64,000 bases of DNA, from NCBI GenBank assembly GCA_021234155.1, contig JAJEKV010000147.1, positions 1,387,019-1,451,018 of the forward strand, written 5' to 3'. This document shows positions 13,601 through 35,091 of this stretch, piece by piece; within the stretch, counting starts at the first letter, position 1; each line of letters starts with the position of its first letter. The notes under the pieces are model-generated. The model saw only the letters and a program-made list of their open reading frames with translations, ran no database searches and was not told the origin of the DNA. The position numbers and the translations under genes were made by a program. The stretch is from Isoetes taiwanensis. Lineage: Eukaryota; Streptophyta; Lycopodiopsida; Isoetales; Isoetaceae.

Positions 13601-14318
13601 GAAGGATAAAAAACATACTTCCTCAAGTTACTCACGTCACGTGGAAGATGTTATGTACTATCAAGTGCGAAGGTAACTCAAACCTATAAGCCACCTTTCC
13701 ACTTGAATTCCAATAGGAAAATTATGTGTTCTTGAGAATTAATTCCAAGCAGAGCTCATTGACATTTAAAAGTGCAAGTAAATGGGCCCCTAGGTATGGG
13801 ATTTCCACGCAGTTCTTGGCTCCCAAAATCAGATTTGTGGCTGTCAAATCTTGTTTAAAACTCCTTGATTCTCCCTTATAATGCCAAATCGATCTCTCTG
13901 AAGCCCAAATTGGCCCATTCCAAGGCTGTCATACCTTTTAAACGCTTCAAGGTCGATAAATTTTACTGTCATTCTGCTAGAAGCATGCAAATAAAACCCT
14001 GCCGGCTTTGCCAGTTCTTGCCTCTGCAATATTTCTTAGTCCATCCTTCAAGAATTTTATTCATTCTGAGCTATCTCAGCTTCTTCTTGTAATGGATTGA
14101 ATGATTACATGATAGAAATTATTAGAATCTATTACAACTATGTAATCTTCAAATATTCAAAAAATAGAGTAATCTCCATCTACAAATTAATCTAGTAAAA
14201 AAGTATAAGATATTAGTGGAGGTTGTTATTTTTAAAACAATGGATGGTTGCATGTTGTATTGTAGAGATGGTAATATTCATAACCGTTTGTGGTTGGGTT
14301 TTTATTGTTGTGAGATTT
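13601..14318. repeat. Retrotransposon-derived non-coding sequence flanking transposon B
   Basis: About 13810-13945 (CAGTTCTTGGCTCCCAAAAT onward) is a direct repeat of about 35570-35700. About 14190-14250 is an inverted match to 35092-35150. No gene is seen. ATTT at 14315-14318 is the left target duplication of transposon B. Confidence 0.6.
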
Positions 14319-14348
14319 AACAAAGTTTAAATTGAAACGCACTTATTT
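14319..14348 (+). repeat. Left TIR of transposon B
   Basis: 28 of 30 bases match the reverse complement of the right end. AACGCACTT occurs twice here as a direct repeat, whereas at the right end it occurs as an inverted pair. Confidence 0.85.
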
Positions 14349-14719
14349 GCTCCAAACGCACTTCAAAAGGAATATTTGAAAGATTCCCTAAATTTCCCTT
14401 AAAAAAGTCCATTTTTAAGGTTTGTTCGTGACAGGTGTGACAATTTAGCTAATTTAGGTACCCTTTTTGAGGGGTTGATTGAACATAACTTCTATGCAAA
14501 AATATTTAATAGCTATTTTCATCCTCCTAATTTAGAACAAAAAATAGTTACTTATCTAAAGTGTAACAAAAAAGGGGCAATAAAAAAAATAGCAAGGGTA
14601 GTAGAGTGACAAAGAAGTGATATATTCAAGGTTGTGAAAATTTTACAAAATTATGAACAAAATTGTCAAAAATATAGGAAATTTTGACAAACCCTCTTTC
14701 TGTTCTTTACATGTTCGAG
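14349..14719. other. Non-coding left end of transposon B
   Basis: AT-rich, containing the inner TIR extension (GAAAGATTCCCT) and homopolymer A runs. It is downstream of the transposase stop, so it probably includes its 3' UTR. No gene is seen. Confidence 0.5.
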
Positions 14720-17700
14720 TCATCGGACAAACTTACATTTTGCAGCAATATCAGGATGCATGTCATCCTCAGACTCATTTAATCCCTGATCACTTGAGCC
14801 TTCATCCTCAGCTTCACTCTCAAAATTAGATGTACTCGAACGATCTTTTTCCTCACTGTCTACAAGTGAGTCTTCATCATCATCTTTTTTGGCCACCTTT
14901 CTAGGTTGTTTGTCTAATCCACATGCCGACCTTATTAAAGTTTGAGTGACCATACGTAACTTATTAGCAGCAGTCAGAACAAAGTCATATGCAAGAACCT
15001 TTACTTCAGCTAGATCTATGACAGCAGTGTTTGCTTTGGACTTTGCTCTCTTTCCCACTCCTGTTTTTACCATTGGCAGCATTTGTTCTCATCCAGTGCA
15101 CTTTTAATTGAGTGGGAATTCCATCCTCTCTTGTTACCTCCAGTACTTTAGCTAGCCAGAATGGCTTCCCAGATTCATCATTATCAGCTGGGACAGCTAT
15201 GAGCATTCCTTTCTGAATCTCTGAGACTGAACCAGATACTCGAGCAACTTGTTGTGCCGTGCATCTGGGGCCAGTGTACATGACTCTGTCATCTTCATCT
15301 GAGCTAGCCATTATCTCTACATGTTCCTCTTGATTCTCAACTTGCACATGGAGAGTTTGCCTAGATGGCCAGTTGAATGTAACTGGTTTTCGACCTTGTA
15401 AGGAAGCTTGTAACATGTCACGTTGCCGAGAAAAAAACTGAGGCCACCATAAAGCATCTGCCTCCCCAAAGTGGTTAGAGCATGACTGAATACTTGTCTC
15501 AATATAATCCAATGATTTGTTTGAGTCAAATGCTGTTCCCTCCTTTTTACTCTTTGTGATTTCTTTCAAGCTTTTTAGAGGCATTTGCTCTGCAGAGAGC
15601 ATAGAAGTAGTATCGAGGATGGTGCGAATGAATTGAATACCAGCTGCTGGCTGCCACTGCAAGGATGTGGCATATTTCTTTCCTTGTAAGATGGCCTTGC
15701 CATCTACAAGTGAGAATTTGATCTGATGCTGAAATGTAATGTTTCTCAAGGGCTCAATTGCACAGCGACCCAATTGATCTCTCCGAAAAATCCATTCCTT
15801 GAAATCATATGTTTCTTCCAATAGCTCGATGTCTGGACGAGGATTATAGGAATCTTGGATAACCTCAATCATTGCTGGCAGGCTGAGAGCTTTTTTTTGA
15901 GCAAGACGTTTAGAAAACCTACTGAACATCTGATCAATTTGATCGTGTGTATGACCAACTAGCAGGAAACCAATCTTCACCTTCTTGAAGATTTGTTTCT
16001 CAACTAGCATGGCACAATAAGCAAATAATGCCTGATTCTTATTTTCTCTTGTCGTGTTGTCTAGCTGAAGATATAGAACCTGTGGTATATGTTCTAGATT
16101 GGAAAGAAGCTTATTCAGTATTGTGATAGTGAGATTTGGATCAGCATGAATGTTTGGATAGTTCAAAAATGCCTTGCAAGATAGTTTCCCATTAAATACC
16201 ATAGCACCAACAACATGCAGGTGTATGAAATCTTCTTCAAGAGCATCCTTAGGCACATTGACAAAATGTGGTAGGGTGGTCTTCTTCTGGTCCATTCCAT
16301 CAATAACAACCGATATGTAGTTGAGTGGTTGTTCCAGTGCTTTCTTCCTATGTTTTGTCAATTTTCTCCTTTCCAAAGATTGTTGTTCTCTGTGCTTGTT
16401 CAGTTTCTCTTTCAATGCATCTGAAATGAAAATATGTTCAGGAAAGAAACTACTATTAAGTAGAACTAGGCAAGAACACGTTGTGGAAGCTTACTTTTAG
16501 TGTGAAGTGTCCTTGCATTTTGTCTCTGAGCTTTTAATTCAGAGCATGTAGCACAAATAGACATCCGGTGCTTTCTAGGAATGGACACACGAGAAAACTC
16601 TTTTTTCCAGAGCACAGTGAAGTAAGAGTAGCATACATGGCGTTCTCCAGCCTCAACACACATATCCTTATAATTATTGTAGACTTCACGTTTCGTGAAG
16701 TTGTCACTCAAGTGGTACATAGGGCTGTTAGAGAGTTTCTCGCATGACTCCTTAAAGAAACCTTCCATCCAGGAAACACATTGAAGGGCATGAATTCTGG
16801 ATATACTTCCTGAATGGCAGTAGTCATTAATGCCTGGATTCTTGTCAAGCCTTTTCTTCAGGCGGTCAATCATCTGCTGCCTAAAGCATGAATCAATTTA
16901 AAGGCTGTTTGACAGACGGTGTGGCCACCAGCTGTGTAAGTAAACCTCTCACCATAATCTGGCCTAATATTGAAGGCTAAGTAGCCCCTTTGGTCTAGCA
17001 GAGTCATTGAATTGTAACTATCACGAATCAACCTCAATTACTTTAGTCCAATCTTAAGCAAACAACGTTGAGAACAACAGTGCTTTGTATGTGTTGCCCT
17101 CAAGTGAGCCTCGTCCATAAGTTTCTTTCTTCTTTGGGATGTACAAGCTTTCTTGTGTAAGTTTCGCTTAAGGTTTTTACTTGCAGGAGCTTTGAATTTG
17201 AACATAGAGTCTTGTGGCTTTGGTAGGTCCTCGTCTGAGAGATCAACATGAGGTGTTTCTTCAACAGATGGTGTACTAGTAGATGCTGAGAGGTTTGGTG
17301 TGGGCAAGTCCTGGGGGGAGGTGCTTTCCCTCTCTCTGGAAAAAAGTAATCGAGGTTGGTGACGTAGTTGACCAGCTCCTGAAGTGTCGTAGAACACAGG
17401 AGTTGCGTGGCGCTGACTACTCCCACTTGTTGTAGTATCAATTAACGAAATGGATGGAGTTGGTGTGATTTGCCTCCGGGGAGGCAGTCTACGGTGGACT
17501 ATGGGAGACGTACTAAAATGAACTGGAGGAGGGAGTCTGAGCTCTATAGCCTATGGTGGAGTAAAACGCATTGGTGGGGGCAAACGACGTTCAGGAGCAG
17601 GGTGTGGTGGAGTAAATTGAACTGGTGGTGGAAGCCGAGGTGGTCGTGGTGGAGTAAACTGAACTGGGCTGGGGCTTTGAATATCGGAGGCAGAAGTTTC

Positions 17701-17802
17701 GTGGCTACTTCCTGGGGTCAGTTGAGGAGGTGTGAAAGTCATCGGAGGAGGAAGCCTGCGAGCAGGAGAGGGAGGCTCTGCAGCTCTTTTCTCTCTAGCC
17801 AT
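14720..17802 (-). pseudogene. DUF7869-type transposase of transposon B, degenerate
   Basis: It starts MAREKRAAEPPSPARR (ATG at 17802) with Pro-rich repeats (RLPPPMRFTPP, PPPVQFTPP), then an in-frame TAG at 17551-17553. A basic Cys region (KHCCSQRCLL), a TAA at 17038 and a shift near 16877 follow. Next come RIHALQCVSWMEGFFKE and MSICATCSELKAQRQ. A 74-bp intron (16421-16494) joins to LNYISVVIDGMDQKKT. The core has LQLDNTTRENKN and VGHTHDQIDQMFSRFSKRL, the hallmark blocks of DUF7869, whose D..D..H-type residues suggest an RNase H fold. An acidic C-terminal tail lies in another frame after about 15070. It is probably the enzyme that moved this element, now broken as read. Confidence 0.8.
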
Positions 17803-18132
17803 ACTCAGCAAGTTAGCGTCACATTGTATAAATTTATACGACAGAAGCAGACGGTATAAATTTATACAGAGATGGTATAAATTTTTACAGAGAAGGGCAA
17901 CTTTGAGCGGCAGACTGTATACATTTATACAGAGATGGTATAAATTTGTACAGAGAAGGGCAACTCAGAACACAAACGGTATAAATTTATACGAAAACTC
18001 ACAGATACTTGTATGGGAGACGTTATGGAGAACCGATATACGGAACGGCACTTAACAGAGGTACTTAAGCCCGGCGCCGGTCGACCTATTTTCTATATAT
18101 GTTGTTCGGAGTCGAAGCCGCTCGCGCTGCAC

Positions 18133-18197
18133 CTTATATACCCCCCCTAATTTGCTCTCACGAACAGTTATAAGCGGATCCATACGGTCATGGCCAC
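18133..18197 (+). promoter_or_regulatory. Possible promoter and tiny first exon of the ParB/methylase gene
   Basis: TTATATACC (about 18134) is followed about 50 bp later by ATGGCCAC and a perfect donor GTAAGT (18198). A short first exon spliced across the palindrome tract to the coding exon near 19000 is possible. No unambiguous acceptor keeping frame was found, so this is tentative. Confidence 0.35.
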
Positions 18198-18251
18198 GTA
18201 AGTCTCTATTCCGTACTATTCTAGTTTCTCATCTCTTTTAGTCAATCTAAG

Positions 18252-18623
18252 CTCCTTCTGTATAAATTTATACCGAAATAGTTTTGCAACGGTATAAATT
18301 TATACGCTCCGAGCACGAGTTGTATAAATTTATACCGTTGCAGAACACTTGCGGTATAAATTTATATGCCTCGAGCACGAGCGATATAAATTTATACCGT
18401 TCCAGAACACTTGCGGTATAATACGAGCGGTATAAATTTATACCGTTCCAGAACACTTGCACAAGTGTTCTGGAACGGTATAAATTTATACCGCTCGTGC
18501 TCGAGGCATATAAATTTATACCGCAAGTGTTCTGCAACGGTATAAATTTATATCGCTCGTGCTCGGAGCGTATAAATTTATACCGTTGCAAAACCATTTC
18601 GGTATAAATTTATACAGAAGGAG
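18252..18623. repeat. Long inverted repeat with embedded palindromes
   Basis: Sequence from CTCCTTCTG at 18252 to the centre near 18460 is repeated in reverse to CAGAAGGAG at 18615-18623. Arms are about 160 bp, nearly identical. The left arm has an extra palindrome unit of about 45 bp. Between palindromes the spacers alternate GAACACTTGC-type and CTCGTGCTCG-type sequence. It could extrude as a cruciform or give a hairpin RNA. Confidence 0.85.
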
Positions 18624-18936
18624 AGCAATGTCGTTTTAACAAAAACTTTGTAAACACTTGCGGTATAAATTTATACGAGAAGACAACATCCAAGGCTTAA
18701 ATTCTGATATAAAGTGTCGAGTGTTTAAAAAAAGGTCCTGAACCATACTAGTTGATTAATAATGTGTGTTTTAAGGTCAATTGACACAAATAAAGGGTTA
18801 AAATAGCGTGCATTTTAGGTCCTTTAAGCCACTTTTCTTACAGTTAAAGTGTTTAAAATAGTGGAGAAAAACTGTATTTCTGATGTAAAAATGGGTTTTT
18901 TTGCGCCGTTTCAGCCCCAAGATCATGTTCACATAG

Positions 18937-19540
18937 AAAGGCCAATCATCAAAGCCAAAACCAAAAGAGCCACAAACATATGAACTGAGAGACCAGACGT
19001 GGTCGGGAGCGAGAGAGCGCTTTCCCACTGAGGCGTACCTTTATTTGTGTTATCAATCAGGGAAGGGAAAGTTTAAGTCGGATGATTACTACCCTGCCGG
19101 CGAAATGACAAGCCTCACTGCTACAGAAAATGAAGATGAGATTTTTATGAAGTGCCTAAATGACGACGGGGACGTCTTCTACATTCTGAACAGTAGAATG
19201 CTTCGTATAAGCATGTGCAAACCTAAAGATGTCCATGATTACATGGCGGAAAATTACAAGAATGGCTATGTAAGTTGGTCTTAGTGGCTTTATGTATAAA
19301 TTTATACCGTCATCTTCCTAATTTACCCTGCATTACAGGACATAGTGGACATTTTGTCCTCAGTAATACTATGTGATCAAAAGGTTATGGTCAAAGGTCT
19401 TTGGTACCAATCGGAACAAGAAGAGGAAGAGGAGGAACCGGTGGTGACAAGAGGGAAGAACAAGAGAGCAGCATTGCTAGTAGATACACAGCCTCCTACC
19501 AAAAAAGGTCAAGAACCACAAAGGCCTTGACCATAGAGGA
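18937..19540 (+). pseudogene. N-terminal exons of the ParB/methylase gene
   Basis: Reads LRDQTWSGARERFPTEAYLYL then KSDDYYPAGEMTSLTA, DDGDVFYILNSRMLRI and YMAENYKNGY. After a 69-bp intron holding one TATAAATTTATA copy it continues DIVDILSSVILCDQKV, GLWYQSEQEEEEEEP and a basic stretch. I do not recognise a domain. The last bases GAGGA (19536-19540) are the duplicated target of the gypsy element. Confidence 0.6.
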
Positions 19541-20119
19541 TGTTAGTCCTGTGCCTCCTGGTACAGGACTATTCATGCATACGTCAGACCAGGTCAAGCT
19601 CAAAGATCCTCAGTCAACCACGGGTCAGACATCCAAGCCTCCACAGAAGACTAAGCAGGCCACGCAGTCAAAGCCTTTGGCTCCCGTCAAGAGGCGCCGC
19701 TCAGACAAGTGACGGCCCGTCACCGCCCGCGTCAGCGTCAGCGTGATTCTAGGCACTTCAAGAGGCACCGCCAACATTCCTGCAAATCAGGCCTCCTTCC
19801 AGGAGTCGGCACCGAGATCAGTCAGAGTGTCTATATTGGGCCCAAGGCCATTGTACTATATATATGAGTAGAGTTAGCTCATAAGTTTTTAGATGAGTTT
19901 GAGTCTTGTCTCCTTTCAGTTTTCTCTCTATTGCGAGAGCTCATGTATTTTCATCATTGATATCAAGGAAGCTTATCATCTTTCTTTCATTTGTTACTGT
20001 TCTCTTCTTTTTCTTCTCTTTATTCCAAAATCCCGTGACATAGTCCCCGGACTCTCTGTTAGATCCACGGGTCCTCCACAGAGGGTGTCTTCGAGTTCCC
20101 CGAACCCGGACCCCAAACA
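19541..20119 (+). repeat. 5' LTR of the gypsy element
   Basis: Starts TGTTAGTCCTGTGCCTCC and ends ACCCCAAACA. It has ATATATATGAG near 19859 as a likely TATA box. The first roughly 480 bp match the 3' LTR almost perfectly; differences are mainly small indels in the last 100 bp. Confidence 0.9.
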
Positions 20120-20121
20120 CC

Positions 20122-20139
20122 GCATGCCCCATTGCCGGG
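20122..20139 (+). other. Possible degenerate primer-binding site
   Basis: GCATGCCCCATTGCCGGG just after the LTR partly matches the TGGCGCCGTTGCCGGGG type used by some plant gypsy elements (tRNA-Asp class). The match is imperfect, so the tRNA assignment is weak. Confidence 0.35.
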
Positions 20140-22249
20140 TCTGATTTTCTCCTACTTTCCTCATGTCGCCATATGCGTCGCAATTTCACGCCCGGAAAGA
20201 ACTCCTTTCTCGGGCGGCATCTCGCTTGGAGCGCCATCAGTCGGGGAAACTGTTTGCGACATGTATGGATCTGCTTATGACATAGAGGGAGGCCATCTTG
20301 GTCTAGGGCTCGATCCGCCACCCACCCTCGTGTCGATCTCGTCCGGTTCCCCCCCAAAGCGTGCAAACATTGCTCACAACCTCGGTCCCCTCATCATTAT
20401 CGGGGCCTTATCGGCTCAACCGTCTCAACCGTACTTTCATACCCACGAACATGCCTACATCCATCATTCTTCCAGGCCATCGCCCACTTCCTTCGCAACC
20501 ATCATCTCCCGGGGTGGGCACGGCTATCCACATGTCTCCTTTGCTTTGCCGGGAATATCCTTTCCCTCGTTTCCCCATCGCTCTTCTGTTTACAACCTTA
20601 CAGATCTCAAAACCAATGCTCCGGCTACTTCAGTTTCTCAACCGCAGTCACCCCTTCATCAGGGTCCGTCAGGCACAATGCCAAATCCACCTCAACCTCA
20701 ATATCCTCACTATCCTGTTCCTGTCCAGCCCAGCACTTTCCCATCTACCTTTCAGACTCTGAAACTGACTTATCCCACCTTTGGCAACACGAAAGGCAAA
20801 CCGTTAGACCAAAGTGCTCAGGCCCACATGGAAGAATTTGAGGCTCTAGCTGTCCTAAATGGGCACGCGCAACCTCAACTGAAATTTCACATCTTTTCCA
20901 CCACACTGCGTGGCTCTCCTCATCAATGGCTCATGTCCAACAAAAGCCATTGGAAACAAGATCGGTCCGAATCGCCTTTGCTTTTACGTCTCATTCTGGG
21001 GGACCACGGATGATGATCAACTTCATCTCAAGCAACTCAATGAACTGCAACAAGAGCCCGCGAGTGCGGGGATTTTGCGGATCGACTTCACATTACGCTT
21101 TCGGTAAGCTCAAGGAGTACCCTACCGCAGGCAGTTTTGGTCTGCCGTTTCTCCAAGGACTTCCTCACGCTATTCGACTCATGGTGAATATCTGCGTCCA
21201 AAACTTTGGAGCGGGCTATCGACCTTGTCAATCACTTTCAGTCAATGTTTCCTCCCGAGGCGGGCTCTTCAAGAGCTCCCCTTCATTCCACCCGTCATGG
21301 TTCCACAAACGGCATTCAGCCTCAACACGCTAATCCACAAATAGCGGTCAAATCTGGTGCCATATTTGCAAATATCAAGGCCATTTGGCCAATGAGTGCA
21401 ACTCCACCAATGGCCCGCCTCATTGCAAGCGATGCAAAATGTGCAATCATGCCCGCGGAAGAGTGCACTTCGCACTCATCCCACACCGTTCGCAACAAAA
21501 TGGTTTATCGGTACAAACCACACCTCAGTCCCAAACGCGTTATCGGCAGCCCACCTCTTCGTGCAGTACCACGCAACTCTATCAACCGAATGGACCAACC
21601 ACGGGGATCCAACCAACGTCCTCCTTTTGATCCTTCTAAAGCTCAGTGCTATCACTGTCAAGAATGGGGTCATACCACCACGGCGTGCCCTCAACTTCCA
21701 CAAGTTCAGGTCCAGCTTCCTGGCACAAATCAGACCACATCGGTCCGCCTCACGGCTTACCAACTCTGGCTTGCTAATGGCAAACAAGGCCCGCGACCAG
21801 TTCTCAAGAAGCCCCCAAGAGCGCCTCAGCAATCACGCTATCAACCAGCTCCAGCAAATCAACCTCAGCTGGATCAACAAGCCCAAGAGGAAATTTTTCA
21901 GGCACTTAATCCTCCCGTACAGCCGTCAAATTGGGTTGGTCTAGTTTCACGCCAGACCAAGGCATCACGTCCCTTGACTATTATTCAGAAGGACACGCAA
22001 CCTGCCTTTGCAGTTGACACCCTTCCTCATGAGGACGAAAAAAAGGTTCACTTTGCACCTGACTTAGAAAAGCTCATGCCAAATGTCATGCCCAAAGTTC
22101 GCCAAAGCATTTTGAATCTCATGCAAGCAGCTGAAGGCCGCACATTGGCAAATGTTCATGCCACCACTCGAGCTCAACAAAGACACGATCCACCTTCAAC
22201 ATCTCAACCTCCACGCCTCGGACATATCCCAATATTGCAGCCGGGTTGA
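20132..22249 (+). pseudogene. Gypsy Gag with zinc knuckle
   Basis: A Pro/Ser/Thr-rich leader is followed by LKLTYPTFGNTKGKPLDQSAQ and LKFHIFSTTLRGSPHQWL, the typical gag capsid block. After a shift near 21000, CYHCQEWGHTTTAC forms a CX2CX4HX4C knuckle (about 21645). The C-terminus is rich in Gln and Pro. The protein would package the element RNA. It is split by at least two shifts. Confidence 0.75.
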
Positions 22250-22297
22250 CTTACTCAAAAAGTTGCTTGCTTCCACCGCCACGCACTCCCCGCACCA

Positions 22298-22760
22298 GTG
22301 GAACCAGCCAGATCCTTTTTCTCATGTACCTCTCGAACTCCAAGAGGAGCTTGCCAAGATCAAAATTCCTTTAAGCTTGGCCACCATTTTAAAACTCGTC
22401 ACCGCTCTCAAGGACCGGTTACCACTCCCAAGCTGTTTTTGGTTGGGGCTGTGGCTACCTCTACACCCACGGTCCATGCAACGGTGGGAAATCAACAAGT
22501 CAACCATGTTCAAATCGATGGAGGTAGTGCGGTCAATCTCATCACGGACAAACTCCGCGAAACAAATGGGCATCACACAACTCTTTCGTTGCCCCATATG
22601 ACATCAAATTGGCTAATGGCCATATCACGAGACCTCAAAGGCGTCACACCTATTCTACACATCAACATTGGTGATCTCCGCTTTCCCATGGAATTTGGAG
22701 TTTGGAAAGGCGGTGAAGATCCGGTGACTATGAAATGCCGGTGGGAAGACCCTTTCTCCG
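22298..22760 (+). pseudogene. Retroviral-type aspartic protease domain
   Basis: VNHVQIDGGSAVNLIT carries the D-x-G-S active-site pattern as DGGS (about 22500-22545). HINIGDLRFPMEF follows. It lies in its expected place between gag and reverse transcriptase. One catalytic motif is seen, as expected for dimeric retropepsins. Confidence 0.6.
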
Positions 22761-23439
22761 CCGGGCAAAGAGTATCCATTCTTGGGCCCGCGGACCGGTT
22801 AGTCATCACGATGGGTCATCTCAATGCCACAATGGACTTGCAAACAGGCGGATCATTTCCGTTGACAATGCGGAACCCTCTCTCTCGAACCAGCGATTCA
22901 CGAAGGCGCTCGAGAATATTTATCAAGTTCGGGCTACCCTGGCAGCGTGTCGCCTCGTCATCCTACCCGAATATGCTGATCCTTGGGGAGAAATGACTCT
23001 TGATCGGGGACCGGTGTGGCTGCCTTGCTTGACCCTACGGCTCCTTGCAATCGAATCCAACGCGTTGATCACTTTTCGAATCTGGACACTCCGGCAACTC
23101 CTGGCGATGTACACGCCGTCATGAAGCAACCAGCGCTTTCGATGACCGCGAGCAACCTCTCTTTTTTTACCACGCAAAAGTGCCACGCATCCGGTTATGC
23201 TCCAACCTCCTCGCACACATTGTCCGGGATAATCAAGTCATACCCCATATTCGGACTCCGAAGTCGAAATTGTGGATGTTGGCAACAATCAACTGTCCAG
23301 ATTCTTTGCAAACCTTCCCGCTCCTTATCGTAACGGGGCCGTCCACACTTTCAAAAATTCAAACACATTTTCGCACGGAGTTACAAAGATCTTGGGGCAT
23401 CAACAAAAGCTGGGGAACTCACCATTCCTACCAAATCTG

Positions 23440-24170
23440 ATGCGACCCGATTAGCTAGCAACGACGATGCGAGGCTCAACCCTAATTACCGTGATCGCGT
23501 CAAGGCGGAAATTGACAAACTCCTTCTTTGCGGGTTTAATCTATGAGGTCAAACATTCTGAATGGGTGAGCCCTATCGTCATTGCCCTTAAGCACAATGG
23601 TAAGATCGGCGTGCAGTGTAGACTATCGGAAACTCAATCGTGCCACGGGGGCGTGATCATTTTCCACTTCCCTTCCGCAGACCAAGTTACGGAAGAAGTG
23701 GGCTGGACATGAATGTACTCCTTTATGGATGGTTTCTCGGCTACAATCAGATCTCCATCAAAGAATCTGATCAACTCAAGACCACTTTCACCACCCCTGT
23801 GGGGCACTTTTGCCTACAAGGTGGTTCCTTTTGGATTATCCAACTCTCCTTCAACATTTCAACGCATCATGCTCTCGGTTTTTCGAGGGATTTCATGAAG
23901 GAAAATCCCTTCTTGCAAATTTTTCAAGATGACTTCTCTGCCTCTGTTCCATGGCTGACCATTTGGATAAATTGGAACTTCGTCTTCCGTAAATGTGATG
24001 AGTCCGCATTAGTCTCAATCTCGAGAAATGCACCTTTTCGCCACTTCGGTGTTACGTTAGGCCATGTTGTCGACCGGCGAATCACCACTGATCCCCGCCA
24101 AAATCGGTTATTGTGCTCAAAGCTCAAGCACCCGCCAACATCAAAGAGACACGCTCTTTCCTAGGAAAGG
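23440..24170 (+). pseudogene. Reverse transcriptase domain, multiply shifted
   Basis: Recognisable blocks in changing frames: EWVSPIVIALKHNGKIGV, then FHFPSADQV, SFMDGFSATI/YNQISIK, LKTTFTTPVGHF and FQDDFSAS, the YxDD-type catalytic box. The frame changes every 100-200 bases, so no functional protein can be made as read. Confidence 0.75.
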
Positions 24171-24179
24171 TCAATTATT

Positions 24180-24730
24180 ACTCCACCTTCATACCTGGAT
24201 GGCGACCATTGCGGATCCCATTCATAAACTCACGGGTGGCCGAATCCACCCGGCTTTGGAATTCCCGGTGAAGCTTTGCTTTCCAACAGTGAAGCTTTTG
24301 CTTACTCGGGCACCGGTCCTTGTTCCTCCTCAATGGGACAAGCCCTTTCACGTTCATGTCGATGTCACCGGCGTTTGCTATTGGAGCTGTTCTTTCTCAA
24401 GAATATGATGCGCTGCCGATAAACCAATTAAGCTCGCCCGGTAGAAAACTCAATTCTGGCGGCGCAACTATTACGCCCGCGGGCGTGAAGCTTTGGGTCT
24501 CATTTTTACGTGTCCAACGCTTCCGTCATTACCTTTTGGGCAGTCAAATCAAGTTCTTTGTGGACCACCAAGCACTTCTCTATTTGATCAACAAATCCAC
24601 GCCCACGGTCGCATTGCTTTCGTTGGGTCCTTCTTCTCCAAGAATTTGCTCCTTTTGAAATCGTTCATAAAGGGCAAATCTCATGTTGTTCGGATTATCT
24701 TTCCGCGCATCCACCGCGGATGATCCCGCA
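24180..24730 (+). pseudogene. RNase H domain
   Basis: Blocks FAIGAVLSQEYDALP, LLGSQIKFFVDHQALLYLIN and the W/F-rich end follow the reverse transcriptase. FVDHQALLYL is the standard tail of Ty3 RNase H (usually TDHxxLxYL). Frames are broken. Confidence 0.7.
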
Positions 24731-24899
24731 ACAGAGTCTCGGGCGCCTTCCCCGATGCTCAACTTTTTTAGTCACGGCAACACCACATTGGTTCCATGAT
24801 TTTCAGCAATACCTCCTCCTCACAGGTGCTCTTCCACCGAAGATGAGGCGGCTCTCTCCCGCCAAGCGACAATCCGTGTCGCCATCAATTTCTCCGAGG

Positions 24900-26130
24900 T
24901 CCGTGACTACACCATGGTTGCCGGACATCTCTACAAAAGGTAAGGACACCATCCTTCGACGCCGTGTTCTACCTCATGAAGTTCCGGACATTGTTCGAGA
25001 AGCTCATCAAGGGCTCGGTGGTGGTCATTTTCATGGTGACACCACGACGCGCCAAAATTCTTCTTCTTGGGTATTATTGGCCCACGCTCTTCAAAGATGC
25101 TCCGCGCCCGCGCCCGCCGCGTGTGGCGCTTGTCGCCGGGTGGGGGCGCCACACGGCCCGTGGCGGCTCTTCCCTTGGCGCCGGTCGCCCGCGCCACTTC
25201 CCTTCAAAGAATGGGGAATGGACTTTGTGGGACCTATAGACCCTCCGTGGCGGCACACTGCGTGCCCGATACATCCCGGTTCTCACCGACTCGCCACCAA
25301 ATGGGCGGAAGCTTGTGCACTTCGGACAACAACTGCTTTGCAAAGCACGGCCCCGAGTCCTCTATCAACAAATCATCACGCGATTGGTGCGCCCCACCTG
25401 AGTCGGGTCGTGATCGTGGTGTTCATTTCATCAATCATACTATCAAAGAGTCGGCGGATTATCTCTTGATACATCATCACAAGAGCACACCTTACTATCC
25501 TCAAGGCAATGGGTTGGCGAAAGCACCAACAAAACTCGGGTCACCATTCTCAAGAAAATTTGTGGCGCTTCCCATGCATTGGCGGACAAAACTTCCCTCT
25601 GAGTTCTTTGGGCCTACAATACTTGTTTCAAGATTGCTACGGGTCACACTCCTTTTAAATTGGTTTATGGTCAGGAAGCTCTCATGCCCTTTGAATTCAT
25701 TCTTCCAACACTCCGGTTTCAACTGGCTACTGCTCATAATCCACCAGCTGCTCTCAAAGAACGGGTCTATCAATTAGAACAGTTGGATGAACTTCGCAGG
25801 GATGCTTATATTCGTGTTCTTCATGGACAACAGTTGCAAAAATCTTTACATGACAAACGTTTGAAGACAAAAACATTCAAACAAGGAGATTTGGTTCTTC
25901 TTTATGATTCCAGGTACAAAAATTTTCGGGTAAACTCAAGTTTCGTTGGCTTGGCCCTTATCAAATTGTTCAAGTGGTTAGACCAAGTGTTTTCCAACTC
26001 GCTGAATTAGATGGCACTCCATTACCTACATTAGTTAATGGTTTTCGTCTCAAAGCATTTCAGCACACAGAAAGTGAACATCCCAACACAGAGACAGTTC
26101 CAGAATCAAACACCACAGAAAGTGACTAGA
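24900..26130 (+). pseudogene. Integrase with C-terminal tail
   Basis: RRRVLPHEVPDIVREAHQG and GGHFHGDTTT match the HHCC zinc-binding start. WGMDFVGPIDPPW and the DRGVHF-type block mark the catalytic core. YYPQGNGLA resembles the YHPQTDGQ block. The C-terminal part reads YGQEALMPFEFILPTLRF, an LDELRRDAYIRVL helix and KTKTFKQGDLVLLYDSR. It ends ESEHPNTETVPESNTTESD. Several shifts occur. Confidence 0.75.
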
Positions 26131-27000
26131 AAGGCGGTAGATTATATTATAGTGGAGAATTTTTACAAAATGTGGGCGCAGCCCAGCTATTTCCGCTATG
26201 GGCACTGCCCTATATACAAAAACGGGCTCAGAGCCCTATCTACTAAGTCCTAAGAGGAAAAACCCTCTACTCGGGTTGGGGCGAGGTGATCTTGAGGAGA
26301 TGGTAGAGGTTACGCTCCGGATCCCAAATAAGGTGCGAGAACCACCTCCATCCCGTTGGTCTTCGGGTCGGGATGTTCAGCCATCCCGGCACACCACCCG
26401 TCCATGCGAATGCCACGGTTGTGGCAGCGCCAGAGATCCAGACAGTTCATCTTACAAGTGATCCACTCCTGACAGTTCGTCGGCATGGTGCAATCTTCGT
26501 TCAAACCAGCAGCAGCCATACTGAGCGCCATCGGATGCCTTCGTTTCTCTCGGTTCGTCTTATATAGCCAACTGAGGACCTCCTTGTCGACGTGGACCAA
26601 TCACACAAATCGCCAACGTGGTTTGCAATGCAAGGCTTTGTTTCTAAAAGGAGAATCTATTCTCCGCGCATATCTAGCAATGGTACCTTCTGACACATTC
26701 CTTTTAATGATATCCCCCTTCGAGTTGCCAGCATTGAATGCCATTCCTTCTTTCCACGCCCGTCGAACATTAATGGGTGTCCTTTGCCATCTGTCACATC
26801 CGATCTTTCTTTCACGTCTCATCCTCACCGTCCATTGCTTCTCCCTTACGTTTTTGGGGACTTAGCCAAATTTTTGCCTCTCAATCCCCTTCTTCGCATC
26901 TCTTGACACCTGGCATCATCAACGGTTCTGTTTAGCACTCTTCATACCTCTTCACCTCCAATTGTATTAACCTAAAACAAACCTTTTAGTTCCTCTGCGC
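26131..27000 (+). other. Spacer between pol and the downstream ORF
   Basis: No conserved protein is seen. It contains imperfect repeats and GC-rich patches and could hold a promoter or splice acceptor for the downstream ORF. Confidence 0.35.
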
Positions 27001-27082
27001 CTTCATCCTCCGTGCTTTCGACTTTTCGTCTTCCGCCTTTGGCATCTCTCTTAGTTCACGCAAATCATTCTCATGGCTGCCC

Positions 27083-29850
27083 CAAGATTTTCTACACTTC
27101 AAACTCTTTGCTCCCAAGGATCCGGCCCTTTTGCATCTGTATCCTTCTTGGCGCCCACTTTCCGAAAGCCCTTGTTGGCCCCAATAAAGATGTCGTTTTG
27201 AGCGACACCAGCTTTCTGAATTTTCTCAAATGGAACTTCCCGGCTCCAAATCACGCCCGATTCGCGGCGGTTCATAGCCAATATTGTTAACAGCCGCGAG
27301 GGTACACCACTTTGTGGTCGATGGCACCACTATTTCATTGACTCAACACTTGATTTCTGAGGTATTTCATATTCCCTTGCACACTCCTTGTGTATCATGA
27401 TGCGCTATCTGGGATATTGATGTCCGCGAGTTTGGTGCACCTCTTTATCACGCCAATGTCCATCGTCGTCGACCAATATCGACAAGCCTCATGAGACCTT
27501 TGTAAAATTTTTTGTGGCGCCAAATTCCTTGGGTATTCTATCAAGAACACCCATATCAATAAGCCTTTCTATAACCTGGTCCTTCTTGCTACACACTCCC
27601 GGCACCACATAGATTGGCCCCAAATGATGTTCTATCGTCTTCTCCAAGAAATGGACCGCCTTGGTACCACTTCCATTTCTGAAGTTTCTGTGGGAGGGCA
27701 CTTTCAAGCCCTCATCCGTCATTACTTCCCTCCCACACCACCAAATTCTCATACTTCCACTCAGCGCTCCCTTCCAGTCAATCACCAAGTTGGCACATCA
27801 CGCCCATCTTCCCCTGGTCATGACCACAGTCACACTCATGTCACTGTCTCTTCCTCCGCTACACCATCCACTTCACACCATTTTTCACAAACCTCCCACA
27901 CCAGGCAACAGCCAATTCCACCACCACAACACCCTCGTCAGTTGTTGTATCGATTATCGGCCGGGATGCTCAAGGCTGCTTTACACTTAAGTTCTGAGGA
28001 ATCCCAAGGCGCTCTTATGGCCGGGTTCAACGCACTAGAGGCCTCACGATCACGGTACACCAAGACTTTCAAGCAGCAACTACCCAAGTTGCAACTTTGG
28101 AGGCCAAACTTCAAGACAAGCATGAAGCTCTCTTACAGGCTCATGCGGATCTCAAGAGTACACAAGCTCAAGTCAGCCAACTCGCAGATCAGCAGGCTCA
28201 GCTCCAGTCCGAAATTCAGACTCTCTTGGAGCACAACAAGTCCAAAGCTGCTCTCCTGAGTACCAAGGATGAAGATATTGCTAAACTCAATGCCTTGTAC
28301 TCGGAACTGTGTGAAAACTTCCGCACTCAAGTTCAAAATCTTTCAGCCCGAGATGCTCAAGTTGCCTCCTTGACGGCTCAGCTTTCTACACAGACCTCTC
28401 AGATCACCTCTCTTCAAGATCAGCTTACAGAGGTGCGTAAAGCGAAAAATACTTTCGATGGCCGGAGATTGCCGTGCTTCGTCTCAATACACCGGGAAAT
28501 CTTCCTCCCAGTCAATCCTTCTCGAGCGGGTCGTGACCAGATCCGCCCTCCTACTTGAAAAGGAAAATAGGATCCGTGATCTCGAACAACAGCTGCAGCA
28601 AGCTATTCAGTCTGCTGATGAGGCTCAAACCAAACTTGACGCCCAGACTTCAATTCTTCACAGAATGCCAGTGGACTTCCCAGCTCCCTCCTGCTATCAT
28701 GATTATGTGGTTGCTCGACGCCACCTCTTCCTTTCAAAGTGGCACGCAGCTGATGGCCCTGTGGATATCCCATCGGCGGTCTTGATTTTTCTCGGTTTGG
28801 CGAAACTCTCCATTGAAGACAAAGGGTTGTGTTGTGCCCTTGTTGTCTTTGATCTCATACACTGTGTACCGATCCCGACTTTCTCACTTTCCGCGTGGTT
28901 CAGCCCATGGCTTATATTTTTCATGATTTCTATCTGGGTGATACACAGGAAAATTTTGGCAATGGGCCACGCCAGCTGTTCCAGGGTGACCCCACTGCGC
29001 AATGGGTGCTTCAGGATAACAATCCATATCTTGCGGATCCTGCTCAGACCAAAACTTTTCATCAGGAGTACATGCCTGAGCTTGCCAATCATTTATCTCT
29101 CTGGCAAGCGGAAGCGCTGCAACAAATAAGGAAGTATCTAGGACATCCCGAAGATCTTCCCTATGCACAAGTCTATATGCAGCACCTCGCTGGTTACAAT
29201 CGATTCTGAGCTCTTGGGCAATGAAAGAGCGGTCCCCACAGGATGGGATAGCCCTCCTGTCAACTCTCAGCTCTCTGCTTCTCTTTGGGATCGCTGGTGT
29301 CAGGCACTTGATCCAGATCTTGTCAGTCAATTCAGGGAGACTGCTCAGCAACCCACGCCCACGGGCATGGTTCCTTCTCCCTATGCTTCCCTGGGTGTAC
29401 CTCCACGCCCCAGGTTCCTGACTTCTGATTGGCGCCTTCCTTTTTGGACCAAGGTCATGGATGGTCATGCGGTGGACACCACCTCAGATCTCGACGGATC
29501 TCCGGTGGGATCCACGTTTTGTTCGCCGATCACATTGGGAAGAAGGTGCTACTCTGGACAACACCACAAATTGGATCTACATTGCTAATGAGCGTGGTTG
29601 GCAACAGCCCGCGGATGCGCTTCATGGTCTCAACACCTTCTTGCAGAACGCCTCCACCTCACCTGATCCTTCTGTCCATCTTCAAAGCGGGCTTTTTGCG
29701 CTGCCCTCAAATGCATTTTGCTCAGCTCCTTAAATCGGCAGCGTCCCATTTTTCACTGCAATCCAAATGCCAGCGTCAGTGCTTTTGGCCTTCAGACCTG
29801 TCTCCTCATGGAGTGTCAGTACATTTCTTCAGACGCCCACGCTGCACTTG
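27083..29850 (+). pseudogene. Additional downstream ORF with long coiled coil
   Basis: An ATG at about 27074 opens MAAPRFSTLQTLCSQGSG. Later blocks read MFYRLLQEMDRLG, a Ser/Thr/Pro/His-rich linker, then a long coiled coil (LQDKHEALLQAHADLKSTQA through QVSQLADQQAQLQSEIQ to LTEVRKAKN and DLEQQLQQAIQSADEAQ). The tail reads YIFHDFYLGDTQENFGN and WDRWCQALDPDLVSQF. It is in the sense direction between integrase and the 3' LTR, where some plant gypsy elements carry an extra or envelope-like gene. I see no signal peptide or membrane span. Function unknown. Confidence 0.6.
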
Positions 29851-30052
29851 AAGACATGGTACGCTCTCGTTTTCTTATTGATGCTGATCCTGCCCTTGGC
29901 CAAGACACACCTCAAGCTCTTCAATCACGCCAAGATCTCATCAGCCAGTACCATAATGGGGCCCGTCCTCACTCCCGTGAGGATCACTTTCAGACTGATG
30001 GCTTCCCGCCCTCCGAAACGCTTCCTCCTTTTCTTCACTCTGAGTGTCGTTT

Positions 30053-30064
30053 GGTGGGGGGGAG
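30053..30064 (+). other. Polypurine tract of the gypsy element
   Basis: GGTGGGGGGGAG lies directly before the 3' LTR start. Confidence 0.8.
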
Positions 30065-30647
30065 TGTTAGTCCTGTGCCTCCTGGTACAGGACTATTCAT
30101 GCATACGTCAGACCAGGTCAAGCTCAAAGATCCTCAGTCAACCACGGGTCAGACATCCAAGCCTCCACAGAAGACTAAGCAGGCCACGCAGTCAAAGCCT
30201 TTGGCTCCCGTCAAGAGGCGCCGCTCAGACAAGTGACGGCCCGTCACCGCCCGCGTCAGCGTCAGCGTGATTCTAGGCACTTCAAGAGGCACCGCCAACA
30301 TTCCTGCAAATCAGGCCTCCTTCCAGGAGTCGGCACCGAGATCAGTCAGAGTGTCTATATTGGGCCCAAGGCCATTGTACTATATATATGAGTAGAGTTA
30401 GCTCATAAGTTTTTAGATGAGTTTTGAGTCTTGTCTCCTTTCAGTTTTCTCTCTATTGCGAGAGCTCATGTATTTTCATCATTGATATCAAGGAAGCTTA
30501 TCATCTTTCTTTCATTTGTTCTGTTCTCTTCTTTTTCTTCTCTTTCAGCAAATCCCGCGTGACATAGTCCCCCGGACTCTCCTGTTAGATCCACGGGTCC
30601 TCACAGAGGGCTGTCTTCCAGGAGTTCCCGAACCCAGACCCCAAACA
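30065..30647 (+). repeat. 3' LTR of the gypsy element
   Basis: Direct copy of 19541-20119, followed by target duplication GAGGA. Relative to it the 5' copy lacks a few C/G-containing bases (for example CCCGCGTGAC against CCCGTGAC). Confidence 0.9.
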
Positions 30648-30652
30648 GAGGA

Positions 30653-32201
30653 GTCAGCAGAAGCTCTCCAAAAGGCTCCTGGAGCAGATATTGTTGTGGC
30701 CCTCATATAAGTCAAGTGCTATTTTAAAGAGGGTTAATGAGACCAAGCTCCTCAAGCAAACCATTTCATTGACACTGAGCACGATTAAGAGGCCACCAAA
30801 AAATGAAGATGGGGTCAGAGTGCTTCAGGTCAGAAAGTTGTACGCGGCACATGTGGCTATTCTTAAGCAAAGAATGAGAAGAAATCCTCATGCGCATGTG
30901 TCGCCACTAGTTGTGATGGTAGACAGATGTCAGGTCAACCAACTCAAAGATTACAAAAAGGCCGACTTTGAAGATTACACTTATTATGTTCTTGGAGGCA
31001 CACATAGTTATAAAGCAAGAAAAGAACTATCAAAAGAAGAAAGCCGTAATGAAGTCTGGAAGAGCGTGGAAGCACATATCTACGTGGGGGTAACAGACGA
31101 AGAGGCAAAAGTCATTGCCGTGAGTCATAATCTAGACAATGACTTCAGATTAAAAATGAGCCTGATAGACAAGATCCGCTTTATGCACCGAGAGTACGTG
31201 GAGTTCAAACAAGTGCATGGAGACGACTTTAAAAAACAAAAGAACAAGCTCCAAGAGCTTCGAGAAGCCTGTGTGACAGAATGCTGCCTCAGTTATGATT
31301 CAGATAAGAAGCCTATAATGGCTGTAAAACAGTACGACAATTACTTTCAGCTTGCTTTCCGAGATGGACAAGTAAGTAAGAATTTTAATTGTCTTTTAGT
31401 ATGTTTAGCGCTGTCTGAACTGTGTGTTGGCCTTGAGCTGTATAAATTTATACCAACCTTGAAAGGAGGGCTCGATATAAGGCACGGTAGAAATTTTTCA
31501 CGGTGCCAAGGCACGGCATAAATTTATACCGTGCCTTGGCACAGTGCCTTGGCACGCTACTCAACACTAAACTATTTGACTTCAACCATTAACAGGTTTG
31601 GGATCTTCAAGAAATTTTTTTTGCATGTTCGAGGAAAAAAGCTAGCTCCACTGGAAAAAAAATCGAAAAAAAATATTGAAGGAAAACAGAAAAACATGAG
31701 CATTGTACCCTGGACTCAGCTACAGGCTTTAAAAACCAAAGAAATTTTTGTGCGTCTCCTGGAGAAAGTTGTGGCCAAGGAATTTACTCTAAAAAAATGG
31801 CCAAGGAAGCTAAGACGTAAGTCTCATGTACTTTCTTTAATTCCTCACTTCGTCTTACAACCTTTTTCTCCTTGCAGTCAGAAAGACATTGTCACCTGCC
31901 AAGCCGAGTTAATGAAGCAACTAAACTTAGAAGACTGGGAGGAGTGCAAGCTTCTTTACCCAACTTGTACGACAGACAGTATAATCAGAGAGCATGCAGT
32001 TAACTTCAGTGGCTGGGTAAGTTTTGCAGAAAACATGTTCTGTTTTTTAGCCTTTGTCTCACTGTTCTCTTATAGAACAAGAAGAAAGGGCTACCAGCAG
32101 GCTTTTTGAACCTGGTTCGTAGGGCCAAAGAGGAAAGACAGAGACTTAAGGGCATTGAACAGGGAAAAGAAGTCGGCCCCAGCAGTTTTGATACTAGCTA
32201 G
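30653..32201 (+). pseudogene. ParB-like domain and linker of the ParB/methylase gene
   Basis: Reads SQQKLSKRLLEQI, then KNEDGVRVLQVRKLYAA and HVSPLVVMVDRCQVNQL. YYVLGGTHSYKARKEL resembles the GG(N/T)H-type box of ParB/sulfiredoxin-like domains. VGVTDEEAKVIAVSHNLDN follows, as in bacterial ParB-methylase proteins. After introns come MSIVPWTQLQALKTKEI, KDIVTCQAELMKQLNLED and LPAGFLNLVRRAKEERQRL. A TAG stop (32199-32201) follows FDTS. Likely DNA-binding or NTP-using; the exact role is unknown. A-run length changes near 31650-31680 and 31790 shift the frame. Confidence 0.65.
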
Positions 32202-32213
32202 GAGAGATTTACA

Positions 32214-33468
32214 ATGTTTGATCATGACTGCTTGTACAAGGTTGTTCAGGGTGATTGCACCAAGCTGGGGACACTTTTCGACAAGCAAAATTTTATATTG
32301 TGCATAGCTGATATTCCATACGGCTTTAAAATTAAAGATAGCGCCTTCGATGATGAAGCCTTCACGCACGTGCAGGTCCGTGCTTTTTTGGACGGGCTAA
32401 AGAAAGTCACGATATCTGCAAACTGGAGGGCTATCATTTTTCATTCAGACCTGCAGACGATGTCGGTGCTTAAACCTATGGGAGCGGTCTGTAACGCCGG
32501 CTTCGAACGTTTGGTAAGCTTTAAATTCATTGCTTTTCTTTTTATTGTAACCCCACGGTATAAATTTATACCTCAGTTGCCTTAAGGTTGAAATTTCTAC
32601 GGCTGGAGCAACCGTGGTATAAATTTATATGGCCAGACAACCTTCGCATAAATTTATACGGCATGGCACCGTGGTATAAATTTATACAGCAAGGCAACCG
32701 TGGTATAAATTTATACCGCCACACCACTGGGCTAACTTATTTTCATTGTTTTCTTTCTACTAATTTTTAATTGCTGTATTGTTTGGCAGGCTAAAAACGA
32801 ACGTCAAGGGACATGGTGGTGGTCCGTGCTTAGTGAGCTGTTTTGCGCATTTCCATATAGGTTTTTACAGCGCGGACGCCAAAAAAACCATGGCTCATTT
32901 CAATACGCAGAATGAGAAGACTCCTCCCTGCAATGCTTTTCAGTTCCCGGCTGTTCTGCAAAAGTTAAAAGACCCACAGAGACAAGGCGCTGTGGTGTCC
33001 CATTATCAGAAGCCACAGAGGCTTATTAATAACTTAATACAGTGGTTTTCTCGCCCAGGCGACTTGATTTTGGATGCTTTTTCTGGAACAGGCACCACAG
33101 CAATTTGCGCCCTTAAGCAGGGGCGCAATGTTGTCTCCGTCGATATAGACCCAGATAAAATAAGTTTCATCAGGACCAGGATAAGCTCTTGTGAATCCTT
33201 TCCTGATGAAAACGAGGAACTGGGAGCAAAGAACGGTGCTGGCGATGTTAAAGGCACTTTTACAGAAATCCAGCCTCCAATTACGGGGAGAAAAGATGAG
33301 GAGGTGGAGTTTGTCGACCTGGAGCCTGTGGAGCTTGTGCCCGAGAAACCACCTGTGCCAGTAGGATTGGAATCAGAAGCAGGCATCCCTGCTATTGTGG
33401 CCTCGCAAGAGACAGATCCTAAGGGGTACGAGAGTCCTGTGGACTGGGAAGAGCCACCTCCCGTATGA
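32214..33468 (+). pseudogene. Class-beta DNA amino-methyltransferase domain (N6-A or N4-C)
   Basis: Opens MFDHDCLYKVVQGDC with the catalytic motif IV as ADIPYGF (residues 32-38; normally DPPY). A 276-bp intron (32514-32789) holds four exact and one altered palindrome. The next exon reads GTWWWSVLSELFCAFPYRF, and after a one-base shift near 32910, NLIQWFSRPGDLILDAF then SGTGTT, the S-adenosylmethionine site (motif I), and VSVDIDPDKISF. Motif IV before motif I defines the beta class of PF01555-like enzymes. The tail is acidic and Pro-rich. Introns exclude bacterial contamination. Product base (6mA or 4mC) cannot be read from sequence. Confidence 0.8.
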
Positions 33469-33917
33469 GTTTATACAGACAGATTGCCTCTACTTTCATT
33501 GTAAACTCTGTGCTAAGAATTATAATATATATTTATGAAAATTTTTAAACTTAAAGCTTTGTGTCTTCAACAATGCTTAATTAGAACAACTCTTTCTTGC
33601 TCCATGATTTCACACTCTTTGTCTTTTATATGTTTGATTTTAGTACTACTTACATTAAGCGTGCAAAAATACAAACTATATTTCCTTCTGTTTTTAACAT
33701 TAAGAACTTATTGAGTTTTCAAAACTAATGTTTCTCTCCTTAAAACAAGAATTTATTTTATTTTATTTTTATTTTTTTTTAAAATCTTTCAAAAATGTTA
33801 CTTTTTTGGGGGTGTTTCGAACAATAAGTGCTCAACAATCTATTTTGCTCCCTATTTTGTCTGTTTTTTTTTTTAAGTTTTCAATTTTTATAAAGGAATC
33901 TTTCAAACGCACTTCTT
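33469..33917. other. Right non-coding end of transposon B
   Basis: AT-rich 3' flank of the methylase gene with T runs and an AATAT-rich stretch at 33520-33540, likely the 3' UTR. It leads into the right TIR. No gene seen. Confidence 0.5.
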
Positions 33918-33947
33918 AAATAAGTGCGTTTCATTTTAAACCTTGTT
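33918..33947 (-). repeat. Right TIR of transposon B
   Basis: Reverse complement of the left TIR. It overlaps a hairpin with arms AAACGCACTT and AAGTGCGTTT (about 33906-33931). Confidence 0.85.
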
Positions 33948-33951
33948 ATTT

Positions 33952-34262: not shown

Positions 34263-35091
34263 CCAGGCCCGTCAACTTGGCAAGAGTTTAAAAGTGCCTT
34301 TGAAGGACACTTTATACCTCCTGGATATAAAAGTAGACAAGATGAATGAGTTTTTGGACCTGACAAAAAAAGGGACTGTAACTGAATATAGTGAGAAGTC
34401 CAGAAGGTTGCAGTATCATTGTCCTTTTGAGGATAAGGGGAAGCTCTGTGCTCGATTTGTGAGGGTTTACAGGTCGATATTAAGAGCACAATGTCAGGTG
34501 TGTCCTACAAGGATCTGGAGGAGGTATCCAGAATTGCTAAGACTCATGAATCCGACTTAGCTGAGAAGGCAACTTTGGAGAATGCAAGGAAGAGACAAGT
34601 TCCTTCCACATGGTAGATTGGTGGACCTACGAGTAGAGGTAGATCCTGTAGTCGAGGAGGTATGGCTGCATAGGCTGTTAGTATGCAGGAGGGCAGTTAA
34701 AATCGAAGATCTCGCCCTATGTATGTACCTTTGAATGATGAAACCAGGGAAAGTTGTATCAATGAGAATCGATGTTTTAGGTGCAAAGAAGTTGGTCATT
34801 ATGGACGGGACTGTCTGAGAAGATGGGCAGATAGTACCACCTCATATGTAGGTCCTCAACGTGGAGGGCAAACCAACCAGTGGTCCAGGCCAAATTCTAG
34901 TAGGGTCAAGGTAGAGGAAACCCAGGCCGAGGTAATAGGGGTGGCCGTAGAGTTTATTGGGATAATAGCAAGGGTGGCAGAGGACAAGCTAGAGGAGATA
35001 ACATGATCATAGCACAAGCCAACCCTGCAGTTGAAGTTAGGGCTGCTCGAATCGCAGACCCTCATGTGAAAAGAATGTGCATGTATGCTGC
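34263..35091 (+). pseudogene. Gag fragment with zinc knuckle
   Basis: Starts at ATWQEFKSAFEGHFIPPGYK, the natural continuation of the fragment ending at 12938. It reads DEMNEFLDLTKKGTVTEYSE, then in other frames CFRCKEVGHYGRDC (CX2CX4HX4C) and GPQRGGQTNQWSRPNSSR. It stops matching at GTATGCTGCAG (35091), exactly where the other copies have the primer site. Many shifts. Confidence 0.8.

Follow-up and report, generated by a model that had tools for sequence, protein, structure and literature searches.

Conserved palindrome arrays in and beside a ParB-like/methyltransferase gene in a Sola1-like DNA transposon of Isoetes taiwanensis

Introduction

The target of bacterial-type methylases carried by transposons is open in the literature consulted, and the question of which DNA such an enzyme might recognize is raised by an element at positions 14319-33947 of the window, the whole stretch of 64,000 nucleotides analysed here from Isoetes taiwanensis (contig JAJEKV010000147.1). 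This element is a high-copy terminal inverted repeat (TIR) DNA transposon with a native length of ~8.5-9 kb, and it carries a plus-strand gene that fuses a ParB-like region to an N6_N4-type methyltransferase (the ParB-methylase) opposite a minus-strand DUF7869 transposase gene. Arrays of a 14-bp palindrome, GTATAAATTTATAC, lie in the promoter between the two genes and in the introns of the fusion gene, and are conserved among copies of the element. Whether these arrays are cis sites for a DNA-binding protein that the element itself encodes, the ParB-methylase being the likeliest one, is judged here to be about evenly balanced.

Palindrome arrays within the element

With at most one mismatch allowed, GTATAAATTTATAC occurs 26 times in the window and not at all in shuffled sequence. 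All 26 sites are inside the element, none of them in an exon or in the long terminal repeat (LTR) retrotransposon nested within it; six are in the divergent promoter and 20 in the introns of the plus-strand gene, in the following places, none of which is assigned a strand.

17803-18189: divergent promoter between the two genes, with six palindromes at 17826-17992
18252-18413 and 18462-18623: arms of an inverted repeat of 162 nt in what is presumed to be the first intron, with 12 palindromes at 18260-18676
19294-19307: the one palindrome of intron 2; 17 of the 19 other copies aligned have it exact
31440-31529: two palindromes in the intron 3' of the exon with the ParB-like box
32558-32716: five palindromes in the last intron

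Counted as five clusters, which allows for duplication, their confinement to the non-coding 32% of the element has a chance of ~0.003 (hand calculation). At two mismatches one further site is gained in the element and one outside it, and at three mismatches a second one outside. The two-mismatch site gained in the element, at 33463-33476, overlaps the methylase stop codon.

The same pattern is found in other copies, sampled from the 1.66-Gb assembly (1,110 contigs) as slices of 10 kb surrounding 20 of the 39 further matches listed for the exon with the ParB-like box (best 40 scored of 617 candidates). All 20 carry GTATAAATTTATAC, with 435 sites in total (341 exact; 5-35 per slice), none of which falls in 93,119 bp of mapped exon, and 104 control palindromes of the same composition gave a mean of 0.02 and a maximum of two sites. 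The 14-mers at zero, one, two, and three mismatches from GTATAAATTTATAC number 341, 94, 63, and 30, a sharp peak at zero. Among the 15 copies that could be fully anchored, sites are present in the promoter and intron 1, in the post-ParB intron, and in the last intron in all 15, and in intron 2 in 14; no copy has a site on the transposase side of the transposase start codon, and four copies, all of subfamily B, have an extra site (at most one mismatch) beyond the point where the last exon begins, close to the 3' end of the methylase gene. The sites extend to a weak symmetric flanking CG, giving the consensus (CG)GTATAAATTTATAC(CG), that is CGGTATAAATTTATACCG, although this consensus was built from sites picked by their core; free of that bias is the comparison within intron 2, where identity is 98% in the palindrome columns and 84% in the other mid-intron columns. 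Genome-wide, close pairs of exact GTATAAATTTATAC sites number 4,971, against none for the reversed pattern, and no close pairs were found in the viral_contigs or genome_contigs sets. Helical phasing of the sites was considered and rejected, as they have no clear period.

The 162-nt inverted repeat of intron 1 folds as RNA far better than its shuffles (z -36). Once transcribed, it would give a highly stable hairpin, a possible source of double-stranded RNA.

Boundaries, copies, and gene-less derivatives

The element was described in the earlier note, which was made from the letters of the sequence alone, as a giant transposon with TIRs and an ATTT target duplication. The features concerned are these.

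14315-14318, no strand: left target-site duplication ATTT, with its matching right copy at 33948-33951
14319-14348, plus strand: left TIR, 30 nt
33918-33947, minus strand: right TIR, 30 nt
19541-30647, plus strand: nested LTR retrotransposon, with LTRs at 19541-20119 and 30065-30647; not part of the element

The ends hold, since the two TIRs are identical at 28 of 30 positions and ATTT flanks both of them. In a scan for inverted pairs of 30-mers (at least 28/30 matches, 3-30 kb apart, 9-base seeds), 16 pairs had equal outer 4-mers, and the ATTT of the element was the only such 4-mer that is not self-complementary; a permissive TIR test with gaps allowed, in which shuffles scored as high as 35 and the real ends 26, was uninformative and is not used as evidence. 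The size does not hold. The element spans 19.6 kb because the LTR retrotransposon is nested inside it, accounting for 11.1 kb, inserted within an exon of the plus-strand gene and bounded by its own 5-bp duplication GAGGA (19536-19540 and 30648-30652); the net length of this copy is 8,517 bp. The LTRs of the nested element differ, as cut, by one mismatch and 22 gap columns, four of which come from an over-long cut, so that the differences (18 internal gap columns and one mismatch) are rich in indels, all of them in the last ~240 of 594 alignment columns.

The genome search for intact copies that the earlier note had proposed was productive. The right TIR is present in 733 exact copies, its reversed-pattern control in none. 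For the left end (best 40 scored of 1,276 candidates, window included), 34 of the 39 other matches listed start at query bases 16-20, which correspond to window positions 14315-14319, and the remaining five at query bases 3, 7, 9, 12, and 21; seven other left-end loci extend 895-1,596 bp into the element. Both ends fall within the slice in four of the 20 sampled copies (8,536, 8,562, 8,719, and 8,962 bp), and each of the four has a perfect 4-bp duplication (GGAT, TATA, AAAT, and AAGT among them) and both genes between its TIRs, on opposite strands. Together with ATTT in the window, inverted ends with a duplication of fixed length in several copies identify a TIR DNA transposon, and a 4-bp target duplication is that of the Sola superfamily; the element is Sola1-like, an assignment made by its gene pairing, its transposase being known here as DUF7869 only, a name not met in the literature searched. 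The claim that the methylase gene is part of the element is supported, and the outcome that the earlier note named as refuting it, other copies with these TIRs all lacking the gene, did not arise. That the two genes always occur together is true of the end-to-end copies and fails for gene-less derivatives with the same TIRs. Across the 20 slices, DUF7869 is covered to at least 50% in 14 and the last methylase exon in 18, and slice ends and nested insertions may account for part of the missing exons. When 12 left-end copies were picked from the 39 listed regardless of ParB, the ParB exon was found at the expected distance, whole or partial, in six. In three of these six (L050, L055, and L059) the ParB exon is 79-81% identical to the window copy, and by this divergence they may perhaps represent a third subfamily.

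Six loci chosen by their palindrome clusters include one gene-bearing copy (L063) and five (L060, L061, L062, L064, and L067) that carry the left TIR and 7-10 palindromes and, within the stretch covered, match none of five element exons. Two of these gene-less derivatives are complete: one, of 2,203 bp, lies between two ATTT copies, and the other, of 2,200 bp, is flanked unequally, by CCTG and CGGG; each holds seven palindromes, in an array that begins ~560-570 bp from the left end. Between the two, identity is 94/98 in the palindromes and 254/318 in the array spacers (p 7e-5), and 90% in the rest. In a less biased check on the first eight exact right ends in list order (to contig C21), seven have at least one palindrome inside, of which five have a close pair by position, and L068 and L070 have one and seven palindromes, respectively, in 1 kb.

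The two genes

18190-33468, plus strand: gene of the ParB-like/N6_N4-methyltransferase fusion, into which the LTR element is inserted
18943-19269; 19339-19540 continued at 30653-31371; ~31612-31820; 31878-32016; 32076-32513; 32790-33468, plus strand: probable exons of the fusion gene
30653-31371, plus strand: exon with the ParB-like box
32214-33198, plus strand: methyltransferase domain; exon 32076-32513 contains its DIPY motif and exon 32790-33468 its SGTGTT motif
14720-17802, minus strand: transposase gene, with the DUF7869 domain within 15006-16424 and a probable start ATG at 17802

The intron-bearing methylase gene reported in the earlier note is borne out by a match to PF01555 (E 1.6e-15 with the last exon, E 5.7e-16 with the joined exons), which places the enzyme among N6_N4-type methylases. 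Its DIPY motif lies upstream of SGTGTT, presumably motifs IV and I as numbered there. In NCBIfam only methylase families were matched, with scores below their cut-offs. The window copy contains stops and frameshifts, one of which, the stop at 32199, separates the ParB-like region from the methylase; all 18 other copies have a Tyr codon there. Because this stop is private to the window copy, the family encodes one fusion protein, and two separate genes were rejected. The exon interrupted in the window is open through the ParB-like region in other copies, being free of stops for at least 318 codons in eight of the 20 and for a shorter stretch in the other 12.

The ratio of nonsynonymous to synonymous substitution (dN/dS; averages by Nei-Gojobori in the frame of the window, over pairs that are not independent) between subfamilies A and B is 0.07 for the ParB exon (20 copies), 0.05 for exon 31878-32016 (19 copies), 0.11 for exon 32076-32513 (18 copies), 0.18 for exon 18943-19269 (20 copies), 0.22 for the methylase part of the last exon (18 copies), and 0.33 for the C-terminal tail (15 copies), exon 31612-31820 being left out of the set. 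Fixed differences between the subfamilies number 5, 2, and 20 at codon positions 1, 2, and 3 of the ParB exon (20 of 27 at the third position) and 4, 1, and 12 in the methylase. The fusion gene is under purifying selection.

The minus-strand gene, likewise as first described, matches PF25273 (DUF7869) at E 2.9e-53. Its first reading frame meets stop codons at 17553 and at 17040, of which the second probably lies beyond an exon end. Between the subfamilies the DUF7869 region has a dN/dS of 0.23 (12 copies, many gaps) and 4, 0, and 6 fixed differences at codon positions 1, 2, and 3. The query with its exon returned 41 rows from the best 40 scored of 1,560 candidates, and the counts are lower bounds. 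No match was found in viral_contigs with the transposase or with the ParB exon; with the methylase, one locus (L009) was found there, with a methylase-like stretch at 28% identity.

Candidate binders of the palindromes

That a dimeric protein reads the palindromes as cis sites is suggested because they are perfect, iterated, better conserved than their spacers, placed in the promoter and introns of one gene, and kept in gene-less relatives. The ParB-methylase is the best candidate for the binder, since of the 26 window sites 20 lie in its own gene and the other six in the promoter that it shares. A symmetric dimer of this protein would probably bind the palindromes with their flanking CG and load on the promoter and intron arrays; the loaded enzyme would place methyl groups on N6 of adenine or N4 of cytosine within the element, and this methylation would set the expression state of the element or mark it as self, so that gene-less derivatives that retain the array would be treated alike by protein supplied in trans. 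A more specific, parS-like form of self-recognition, in which the ParB-methylase loads on the palindromes, spreads or acts locally, and writes N4-methylcytosine or N6-methyladenine, with non-autonomous relatives surviving by keeping the site, is held only tentatively, at somewhat less than even.

The ParB-like box itself, YTYYVLGGTHSYKARKEL, presumably resembles a ParB box. Against a profile of seven phage ParB-methylases (of eight proteins, with L008 excluded, as its annotated gene spans part of the match only), YTYYVLGGTHSYKARKEL is the best-scoring window of the two proteins, and in one copy Pfam gave PF20188 (DUF6551) at E 0.009 in this region. A PDB search with the ParB exon reached E 0.17 at best, tblastn of the exon in phages found none, single-sequence structure prediction was unusable (mean predicted local distance difference test score 36.7), and Pfam found no helix-turn-helix domain in the fusion protein. 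A ParB-like domain is nevertheless likely, by analogy, because the same architecture has been published for Ectocarpus and is annotated in phages.

A number of results weigh against binding by the ParB-methylase. Profile searches recovered two of the domains named in the earlier note, DUF7869 and the N6_N4 methylase, but no Pfam ParB family in the ParB-like region, where an unrelated family scores best (E 0.0035); the box is weak by sequence, with a marginal match to a ParB-like family in PHROG (E 0.03), a score against the phage profile that 87 of the 4,726 scored shuffles (of 5,000) reach, and an hhalign score of the family against that profile of 22.46, which none of 200 column shuffles reaches, by a narrow margin (best 21.95). 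Within subfamilies dN/dS is higher: outside the C-terminal tail it spans 0.10-0.36 in subfamily A and 0.22-0.48 in B, and in the tail it is 0.28 in B and as much as 0.76 in A; higher values are expected if dead copies decay. The other six of the 12 left-end copies have nothing recognizable at the expected place of the ParB exon, the right-end copy L069 has no palindrome within the 1 kb examined, and the gene-less derivatives are a biased sample, having been chosen for their palindromes. Retention of the array in gene-less derivatives fits a transposase or a host factor equally well. In addition, one bacterial ParB-methylase is reported to be a sequence-nonspecific nickase, which does not suggest palindrome binding (PMC5512222).

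The main rival is binding by the transposase, with the palindromes serving as internal, enhancer-like DUF7869 sites and the ParB-methylase acting elsewhere or modifying them to regulate transposition. Gene-less derivatives keep both the ends and the array, which is the usual sign of what a transposase needs in cis; yet the arrays in the window are separated from the right end by more than 1.2 kb and from the left by ~3.5 kb (the two-mismatch site at 33463 is nearer, as are some subfamily B sites near the methylase 3' end), the number of sites varies several-fold among slices over the range given above, and the terminal regions of the window element and its transposase gene have none, whereas the methylase introns are dense with them. 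Subterminal transposase sites in the window were rejected for the same lack of palindromes in the terminal regions, and transposase binding as a whole is considered rather unlikely. The core of the palindrome resembles a TATA box, and with TATAAAT on both strands and six sites in the divergent promoter it could be the site of a host protein, acting as a core promoter in both directions or as an element of replication or chromatin. This is thought less probable again, as 14 bp are symmetrically conserved, with a weaker CG at both edges, and introns hold 20 of the 26 sites in the window.

It is highly improbable that the arrays are a by-product of hairpin formation or tandem duplication, or RNA hairpins in the pre-mRNA. 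Such an origin would suit the strong folding of the intron 1 inverted repeat and the copies visible at 62-bp spacing, but the single intron 2 site stays exact in nearly all aligned copies within an otherwise variable intron, spacers diverge more than palindromes, and sites occur in the promoter too.

Other features of the window

Outside both TIRs lies an inverted pair, 13249-13585 and 34770-35093, that is 92-93% complementary and has a related stretch at 1-290; its members are perhaps retrotransposon pieces. An array of at least nine units of 1.1 kb occupies 46584-58000, and seven adjacent pairs of units, when aligned, have 78-114 gap columns against 43-55 mismatches, an excess of indels over substitutions that may reflect assembly noise. 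An AGA microsatellite of ~123 units is present at 43908-44282. Rfam and tRNA scans of the window gave no useful lead.

Comparison with known systems

In bacterial ParB/parS systems, short perfect palindromes are clustered near the gene of a ParB-like protein. The element resembles them in having clustered short palindromes near a ParB-like gene, a likeness that for the present consists in placement and conservation, and the parS sequence differs from the present palindrome. Phage ParB-methylase fusions (e.g., XPP58267.1, annotated as a ParB-like partition nuclease) have, as here, a ParB-like N-terminus followed by an N6_N4 methylase, but the seven compared are 404-470 amino acids long, in one open frame, and without the long linker; the 20 matches listed of 499, found with the methylase part only, are 21-35% similar to the window protein.

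The closest known element, Sola1-1_Ec32 of Ectocarpus, is likewise a DNA transposon with a ParB-like/methyltransferase (N4C or N6A) gene on the strand opposite its transposase, so that the earlier note's statement that no named family has this pairing no longer stands (PMC12477816). At 21.5 kb it is longer than the 8.5-9 kb found here, the two being compared by description only, and palindrome arrays, unlike in the present element, go unmentioned in the part of its account available (PMC12477816). As far as that part goes, similar transposon proteins in green and red algae are cited (Iyer 2011; Petroll 2025, both as cited in PMC12477816), and self-marking by such transposon methylases has already been proposed (PMC12477816). 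Sola2 elements, in the portion of their description consulted, are comparable as Sola-type elements with an accessory gene and 4-bp duplications, although their accessory gene is Fanzor1 and not a ParB-methylase, and their duplications are AT-rich, whereas GGAT and AAGT also occur here (PMC3627910).

The pairing of methylase and transposase is therefore already known, and the palindrome arrays, on which the earlier note is silent, are the part for which no report was found in the literature searched, which does not show that none exists. They provide a concrete candidate target for self-marking. With thousands of genomic instances of this defined candidate site, gene-less derivatives that amount to deletion experiments made by nature, and a gene on which purifying selection is clear, the family adds to Sola1-1_Ec32 and the phage fusions a system in which the target of a transposon-borne bacterial-type methylase may be sought.

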